A DNA stretch of 58,727 nucleotides from an uncultured Pelagibacteraceae bacterium. GTDB taxonomy: Bacteria > Pseudomonadota > Alphaproteobacteria > Pelagibacterales > Pelagibacteraceae. The notes under the pieces are model-generated. The model searched no databases, was not told where the DNA came from, and saw nothing but the letters and a program-made list of their open reading frames with translations. The translations under genes were made by a program, and so were the position numbers. The DNA lies in assembly GCA_902597425.1 (NCBI GenBank), contig CACJXT010000003.1, positions 1 to 58,727 of the forward strand, written 5' to 3'. The number at the start of each line of letters is the position of its first letter. Position 1 is the first letter of the stretch. This document shows positions 41,308-42,642 of this stretch, one piece after another.

Positions 41308-41630
41308 CTTATATTGTAAACGAAAACTGCATTAAGTGTAAATTAACAGACTGTGTTGAAGTTTGTCCGGTTGATTGTTTTTATGAGGGAAAAAATATGC
41401 TTGTAATTAAACCTGATGAGTGTATAGATTGTGGCGTTTGTGAACCTGAATGTCCAATTGATGCTATAAAACCAGACACTGAACCTGGAACTGAAAAGTG
41501 GGTAGAATTGAACAGTAAATATTCAGAAATTTGGCCAAACATAAACAAACAAAAGGATCCTTTAGAAGATAACGAAAAATATAGAAATGAAGAAAATAAG
41601 TTTGAAAAATATTTTAAAGAAAACATTTAA
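41304..41630 (+). CDS. fdxA: 7Fe ferredoxin (FdxA-like)
   Basis: 108 aa; '[27 protein letters not shown]...[18 protein letters not shown]'. Confidence 0.94.
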
Positions 41631-42438
41631 AAAATCTAATCTAAAGAAACCTACAAAAAAGGTTAAATCTGTTAAAAAGGTTAAATCTGTTAAAAAGGTT
41701 AAATCTACTAAAAAAATTAAATTTTCTAAAATAAGAAAAACTAATAAAAAAATTATTAAAAAAAAAAATACTATTTCGCCTAAAACAGCAACAGGTATTA
41801 ATCAAAAAAATAAAACAGATAATTTAAGAATCCCCAAAAGTAATGAAATAAAGCCAGAAATTAAAAAAATTAAAAAACAAGGAACTGCAGATAAAGAATA
41901 TAAACTTAAAGATTATGTAGTTTATCCTAAACATGGTGTTGGACAAATTCTATCTGTTGGTTCTAAAATTATAGGTGGAATCGAAGTTCAATGTTACAAT
42001 ATAAAATTCGATAAAGATAAAGCAATAGGATTACTTCCAATTAATAAACAATCTTATTTAAGACCACTAGCTACAATTAATCAAGTAAACAAATCAATTT
42101 CAATACTAAAAAGTAAACCAAAAATCAAAAGATCAATGTGGAGCAGAAGAGCTCAAGAATATGAACAAAAAATTACCTCAGGAAAAATTTACGATTTAGC
42201 TGAAGTTGTTAGAGATCTAAATAAAGGTGATGATTTGATGGTAGATCAATCTTACAGTGAAAGACAGCTTTTCGAAAAAGCATACGAACGAATATTGGCA
42301 GAATTTCAAATAGTTTTGGGTACATCACTAGAAAACGCTCAAAAAAAATTAGATAAAGCTCTTAAAAGAAACTTAGAACATCAAAAACCTAGATTAGAAC
42401 CAAAAACTGAACAACCAACAACAGAAGCAGTAGAATAA
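41587..42438 (+). CDS. CarD/CdnL-family transcription regulator with long basic N-terminal extension
   Basis: 283 aa; CarD domain from '[37 protein letters not shown]'; ~104-aa Lys-rich N-terminus. Overlaps fdxA by 44 nt. Confidence 0.9.
41656..41709 (+). repeat. 3 x 18-bp tandem repeat in the carD N-terminal extension, with a degenerate fourth copy to 41727
   Basis: AAAAAGGTTAAATCTGTT / AAAAAGGTTAAATCTGTT / AAAAAGGTTAAATCTACT; encodes K-KVKSV repeats. Confidence 0.95.
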
Positions 42439-42482
42439 AAGAACGCCTCCCACAACATTAATTGAAGGAAGCGTTCTTTAAA
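42437..42482. terminator. Bidirectional terminator hairpin between carD (+) and the basic micro-gene (-)
   Basis: AAAGAACGCcTCC ... GGAaGCGTTCTTT, one mismatch, flanked by A/T. Confidence 0.75.
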
Positions 42483-42492
42483 AGATACTTAA

Positions 42493-42561
42493 CTATCTTC
42501 TTCTTCTTTTCTTAGCTTTTTTCTTAGCTTTTTTCTTAGCTTTTTTTCTTCTTTTAGCCAT
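42493..42561 (-). CDS. Very basic 22-aa peptide MAKRRKKAKKKAKKKAKKRRRR (unannotated micro-gene)
   Basis: Manual reverse-strand translation ATG GCT AAA AGA AGA AAA AAA GCT AAG AAA AAA GCT AAG AAA AAA GCT AAG AAA AGA AGA AGA AGA TAG; upstream Shine-Dalgarno-like AGGGAG (CAGGGAGCTAAAG-ATG); terminator follows; TTGACA-N17-TAAAAA upstream. Confidence 0.75.
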   Translation of the reverse strand: MAKRRKKAKKKAKKKAKKRRRR

Positions 42562-42584
42562 CTTTAGCTCCCTGTTTTAGTTTT

Positions 42585-42602
42585 ACGAATCATGTGATTC
42601 GT
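42585..42602. promoter_or_regulatory. Inverted repeat in the presumed 5' UTR of the micro-gene
   Basis: ACGAATCA-TG-TGATTCGT, 8-bp perfect arms. Confidence 0.65.
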
Positions 42603-42613
42603 TGTTAAGTTTA

Positions 42614-42642
42614 TTTTTATTTTTTTTAACAACTTATGTCAA
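42614..42642 (-). promoter_or_regulatory. Sigma70-like promoter for the micro-gene
   Basis: Reverse strand TTGACA (42642-42637), 17-nt spacer, TAAAAA (42619-42614); overlapped by inverted repeat GTTGTTAA (42601-42608)/TTAACAAC (42626-42633). Confidence 0.5.

Follow-up and report, generated by a model that had tools for sequence, protein, structure and literature searches.

A lysine- and arginine-rich micro-gene convergent with carD in Pelagibacterales, putatively a very short variant of a basic H1-like protein

Organisation of the locus

The window, i.e. the whole 58,727-nt stretch of DNA from an uncultured Pelagibacteraceae bacterium that was analysed, carries a 22-codon ORF facing carD (Table 1). 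Lysine, arginine and alanine make up nearly the whole of its product, and among the ATG-initiated ORFs of at least 20 aa in the 58.7-kb window this ORF alone contains 50% or more of K+R. The original prediction had endowed this ORF with a TTGACA-N17-TAAAAA promoter, a dyad, an AGGGAG ribosome site and a terminator hairpin; all are present. The terminator hairpin starts within the carD stop codon. As read from these signals, the locus would specify a short mRNA with its own sigma-70-type promoter, a hairpin near its 5' end and a strong ribosome site, and the transcript would end at the terminator common to carD.

Table 1. Positions, in the window, of the features of the carD/micro-gene locus
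Feature	Position	Strand	Remark
carD (CarD_TRCF_RID + CarD_C), convergent neighbour	41587..42438	plus	
Bidirectional terminator hairpin with T run	42437..42479		common to micro-gene and carD
Micro-gene, 22 codons, MAKRRKKAKKKAKKKAKKRRRR	42493..42561, stop included	minus	
Shine-Dalgarno AGGGAG	42568..42573	minus	ATG 6 nt further on
5' UTR hairpin ACGAATC-ACAT-GATTCGT	42585..42602	minus	
-10-like TAAAAA	42614..42619	minus	
-35 TTGACA	42637..42642	minus	17-nt spacer to TAAAAA

A-rich genomes abound in AAA codons, and an ORF of this kind could in principle be a product of chance. The probability of this is practically nil: no comparable K+R-rich ORF turned up in 40 simulated windows having the dinucleotide make-up of the real one, and this result, together with the order-wide conservation described below, refutes the chance explanation. 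A known RNA family was also rejected, as no Rfam match was obtained for the micro-gene at the gathering score (the window yielded three tRNAs only).

A few relatives (L006, L007, L009, L016 and L035) show a frame that is open further upstream, to an ATG or TTG in or near the hairpin (e.g. MIRTNRELK-MAKRRKK...); this codon is probably not the start since it is not conserved.

Conservation of the gene pair and of the leader

Loci in relatives were located by using carD as an anchor. Among named loci of the public genome set, those with the nearest CarD belong to uncultured Pelagibacteraceae, Ca. Pelagibacter and SAR11. Seventy-three genomes of the same genus (the window's own counted in) possess carD, and in 70 of them a K/R/A ORF of 21-32 aa lies tail-to-tail with it. 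The exceptions are two loci where the contig ends inside the ORF (L008 and L033) and one genome (G068, locus L090) where one additional A within a run of As shifts the frame and interrupts the ORF after codon 15, which reflects either a real loss or an assembly error. The synteny search that had been proposed downstream of carD was thus positive, and frame disruption in relatives, which was to count against the gene, was limited to this single A-run frameshift among the 73 genomes, the rest being intact. At the family level, 40 of the 42 named Pelagibacteraceae loci display a K/R-rich ORF and the remaining two stop at a contig edge; the ORF found in other genera of the family has 36 aa in G241 and 21-24 aa in G395, G420 and G585. 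No K/R-rich ORF was seen in convergence with carD at the examined Rhodobacteraceae and other alphaproteobacterial loci (L109-L112 included). Viral copies were not found with CarD as query, a result that says little because the peptide itself was not the query.

The gene beyond the carD/micro-gene pair is AMP-binding acyl-CoA-synthetase-like in Pelagibacteraceae; in the second family of the order (hereafter the sister family), genes for a tRNA-binding-domain-like protein and a photolyase-like protein were recognised there, from translations read by eye. As the outer neighbour differs between the two families, it is the pair itself which is kept. The gene had been described as lying tail-to-tail with a lysine-tailed CarD to which it could be functionally related. 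Both the convergence and the tail stood, the latter sitting at the N terminus of CarD; as to the functional link, it may exist, conserved convergence being its sole basis. In both families of the order, the Lys-rich tail is some 90-100 residues long (window 41587-41900), and a CarD with a Lys/Ala-rich N-terminal tail was also observed in another alphaproteobacterium (G146).

In the distinct Pelagibacteraceae leaders, TTGACA is 76-87 nt 5' of the ATG and GGGAG is 5-6 nt ahead of it; the latter was required when these leaders were collected, and it was also observed in loci gathered without that requirement. The 5' arm of the hairpin, CGAATC (window 42596-42601), is invariant in 44 aligned leaders from both families. 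Hairpin pairing amounted to 91%, versus 14-54% in slid controls, and was not above shuffles (108/500); since covariation does not exceed the shuffled level, conservation of the hairpin is mainly at the sequence level. CGAATC remains constant in both families even when the 3' arm changes, and in G241 (L228) the pairing has moved downstream with CGAATC retained: the sequence itself may be what is recognised.

The pattern CGAATCA-N(0-10)-TGATTC has a single site in the 879-kb genome to which the window belongs. A covariance model of the leader hit one place, and no more, in each of 241 Pelagibacterales genomes out of 297, a lower bound given the strict filters applied, and did so in 124 of the 150 good-quality genomes of the order. 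Outside the order no leader was detected: in a class-wide set of 240 genomes the model matched just two, both of the same genus, one being the genome of the window itself. Fifteen leader-negative genomes were re-examined; carD was missing as well from 11 of them, so the region was probably not assembled there. Among the others, the ORF is present at a contig edge in G405 and behind a leader that has diverged in G241, and the assembled sequence of G481 and G503 stops too early. By this distribution, the leader is a mark of the order Pelagibacterales.

A longer homolog and selection on the peptide

In the sister family, carD converges with a gene for a Lys/Ala/Pro-rich protein of 40-99 aa (e.g. 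MEELKVIFAKARKKAKKKAAPKKKRKAAKRKPAKKK...), found in 23 of the 27 genomes (contig edges account for the remaining four). The leader presents its elements in the same order as in Pelagibacteraceae, i.e. TTGACA, a ACGAATCA...TGATTC hairpin and a GGGAG-type ribosome site. The core of the protein, FAKARKKAKKKA, matches the start of the micropeptide, MAKRRKKAKKKA, with AK-x-RKKAKKKA common to the short and long forms. On the basis of leader, position and core, the two are taken as homologs. The long form is made of K/A/P repeats which resemble H1/AlgP-type tails in composition, and the original reading of the peptide as H1-tail-like and nucleic-acid-binding gains support from it. This long protein is the new element; it would make the micropeptide a homologous, very short version of a basic H1-like protein. 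The sister-family leaders (L091-L130) also contain a near-invariant AACCTCTAACTAAAC between hairpin and Shine-Dalgarno, followed by CCC-(A/T-rich)-GGG adjoining the ribosome site. Their CCTC/CCC could mask GGGGAG, which suggests translational control or autoregulation.

To characterise variation in the short form, nearest-neighbour differences were counted among 92 distinct intact copies, stop codons excluded. They comprised 74 synonymous and 40 non-synonymous changes, for an expected synonymous share of 0.30 under the observed substitution spectrum; the pairs are partly interdependent and the counts therefore descriptive, but their direction is clear. All but two of the non-synonymous changes (38/40) are K-R swaps, and K to E (AAA to GAA) is absent even though A-G is the commonest change. 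The length of the Pelagibacteraceae products, 20-36 aa, varies in frame by whole repeat units. The copies counted have 15 to 23 basic residues, K+R content goes from 65 to 83%, and the non-basic residues are limited to A, T, P and, rarely, G or S. KKA units are gained or lost as wholes while charge persists. That charge is kept as length and repeat number drift fits non-specific binding to a polyanion; such turnover is expected of a polycation rather than of a shape-specific binder.

The same data bear on the possibility that the RNA is the functional molecule, either as a Lys/Arg attenuation leader or as an antisense sRNA directed at carD through the shared terminator. The 5' hairpin and the terminator are indeed conserved, and a leader peptide rich in Lys/Arg could, in principle, respond to the charging of tRNA. 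We nevertheless hold an RNA function for very improbable, because changes within the ORF conserve the protein and because the sister-family ORF extends over 40-99 codons. An attenuator was rejected as the strand carries no regulated gene further downstream: the terminator comes next and then carD, in antisense.

The carD synteny, the order-wide leader, the selection at the protein level and the presence of one copy per genome strongly support the original claim of an independent micro-gene, real and overlooked. Judged from sequence comparison, it belongs, in single copy, to the core genome of Pelagibacterales (SAR11).

Likeness to known basic proteins and proposed role

The bacterial H1-like lysine-rich proteins, chlamydial Hc1/Hc2 and Bordetella BpH1, are among the closest known systems. 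As in these and in the C-terminal domain of AlgP/PhaF (PMC9239181), the SAR11 form is Lys/Ala(/Pro)-rich, repetitive, presumed disordered and polycationic; the long form resembles all these tails in composition. Both forms have the Lys-rich repetitive K/A(/P) composition expected of the H1-like group (K+R at 65-83% for the short one, K/A/P repeats for the long one). Unlike the Hc1/Hc2/AlgP type, the short form has 20-36 aa, stands alone without a structured domain, exists in one copy next to carD and has no family-model match. A known protein family or structure was rejected: neither form matched a Pfam or NCBIfam model up to E = 1, a search in which correction for composition bias may suppress such matches, and neither gave a significant match to PHROGs or PDB sequences. 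The H1-like label therefore rests on composition, and by resemblance the peptide would be a new variant of H1-like basic proteins, not assigned to a named family.

The main rival is a lineage-specific ribosomal peptide threading into rRNA, like eL41, mycobacterial bL37/bS22 and bTHX. These are also very short, K/R-rich and clade-universal, and the resemblance to them of a 20-30 aa K/R peptide starting with MAKRRKK, in universal single copy and with strong expression signals, is a point against an H1-like role. The known ribosomal peptides are, however, non-repetitive, whereas the SAR11 peptide varies in repeat number and length. Low-complexity repeats, a range from 20 to 99 aa, the gain and loss of KKA and the existence of a K/A/P repeat homolog in the sister family are unlike what rRNA-fitted peptides display. 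Additional small proteins are known from mycobacterial ribosomes, where they lie close to the decoding centre and to the PTC (PMC6133939). In the PDB, the 22-mer had no sequence match, thus none to a peptide of known structure (phmmer, E up to 10), and the long form had one insignificant match, to L29 (E = 0.52). On balance, we regard a ribosomal role as unlikely.

In Pseudomonas, polyP granules are organised by AlgP, a protein with H1-like K/P/A repeats (PMC9239181). By analogy, the peptide could bind polyphosphate or another non-nucleic polyanion as a granule factor; alternatively, it could be an exported cationic antimicrobial. Such roles seem to us quite improbable: there is no signal peptide or hydrophobic face, and polyP kinases were mostly absent from the 15 clade genomes tested (PPK1 in 2/15, PPK2 in 0/15), which disfavours polyP as partner, sets the SAR11 form apart from AlgP and makes DNA or RNA the likelier polyanion. 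The two genomes with PPK1 are G387 and G091, indicating a patchy trait in the order.

We thus lean, modestly, towards non-specific binding of nucleic acid (most probably chromosomal DNA, otherwise RNA) with a compacting or charge-neutralising role. The product, a 20-36 aa polycation in Pelagibacteraceae or a 40-99 aa H1-tail-like protein in the sister family, would be disordered in solution, would bind nucleic acid via charge with little sequence specificity, and would act on the chromosome, alongside HU/IHF, as a small linker-histone-like factor that compacts or neutralises charge. HU/IHF (PF00216) has the nucleoid role proposed for the peptide, is unrelated to it in sequence and occurs in the same genomes. 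It was present in 15/15 genomes tested, so that replacement of HU was rejected; there being no nucleoid-protein gap to fill, this also counts against an H1-like role. A fuller version of the nucleic-acid-binding proposal is offered more tentatively: the gene might encode a mini-histone, i.e. a stand-alone 20-36 aa polycation, homologous to the longer H1-tail-like protein of the sister family and part of the order-wide core, that compacts the chromosome or shields RNA and is perhaps tied to carD via the shared terminator and paired expression.

No other heterotrophic bacteria are as abundant in the surface ocean as SAR11, whose genomes are highly streamlined. Universal retention, in such bacteria, of a gene that most gene callers miss because of its length, and whose product is about as basic as a protein can be, implies a conserved need, plausibly the packing of the genome into a very small cell. 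If the product is a nucleoid factor, it is among the smallest known; if it is ribosomal, the inventory of the SAR11 ribosome changes. Our literature search found no earlier description of the micro-gene or peptide, and the region is not listed in the table of P. ubique intergenic regions (of ~26% GC or more) of Meyer 2009 (PMC2704228). AMPSphere lists 6,675 candidate peptides from Pelagibacter (PMC10491242), and the peptide may be present, unremarked, in catalogues of small proteins or candidate AMPs.
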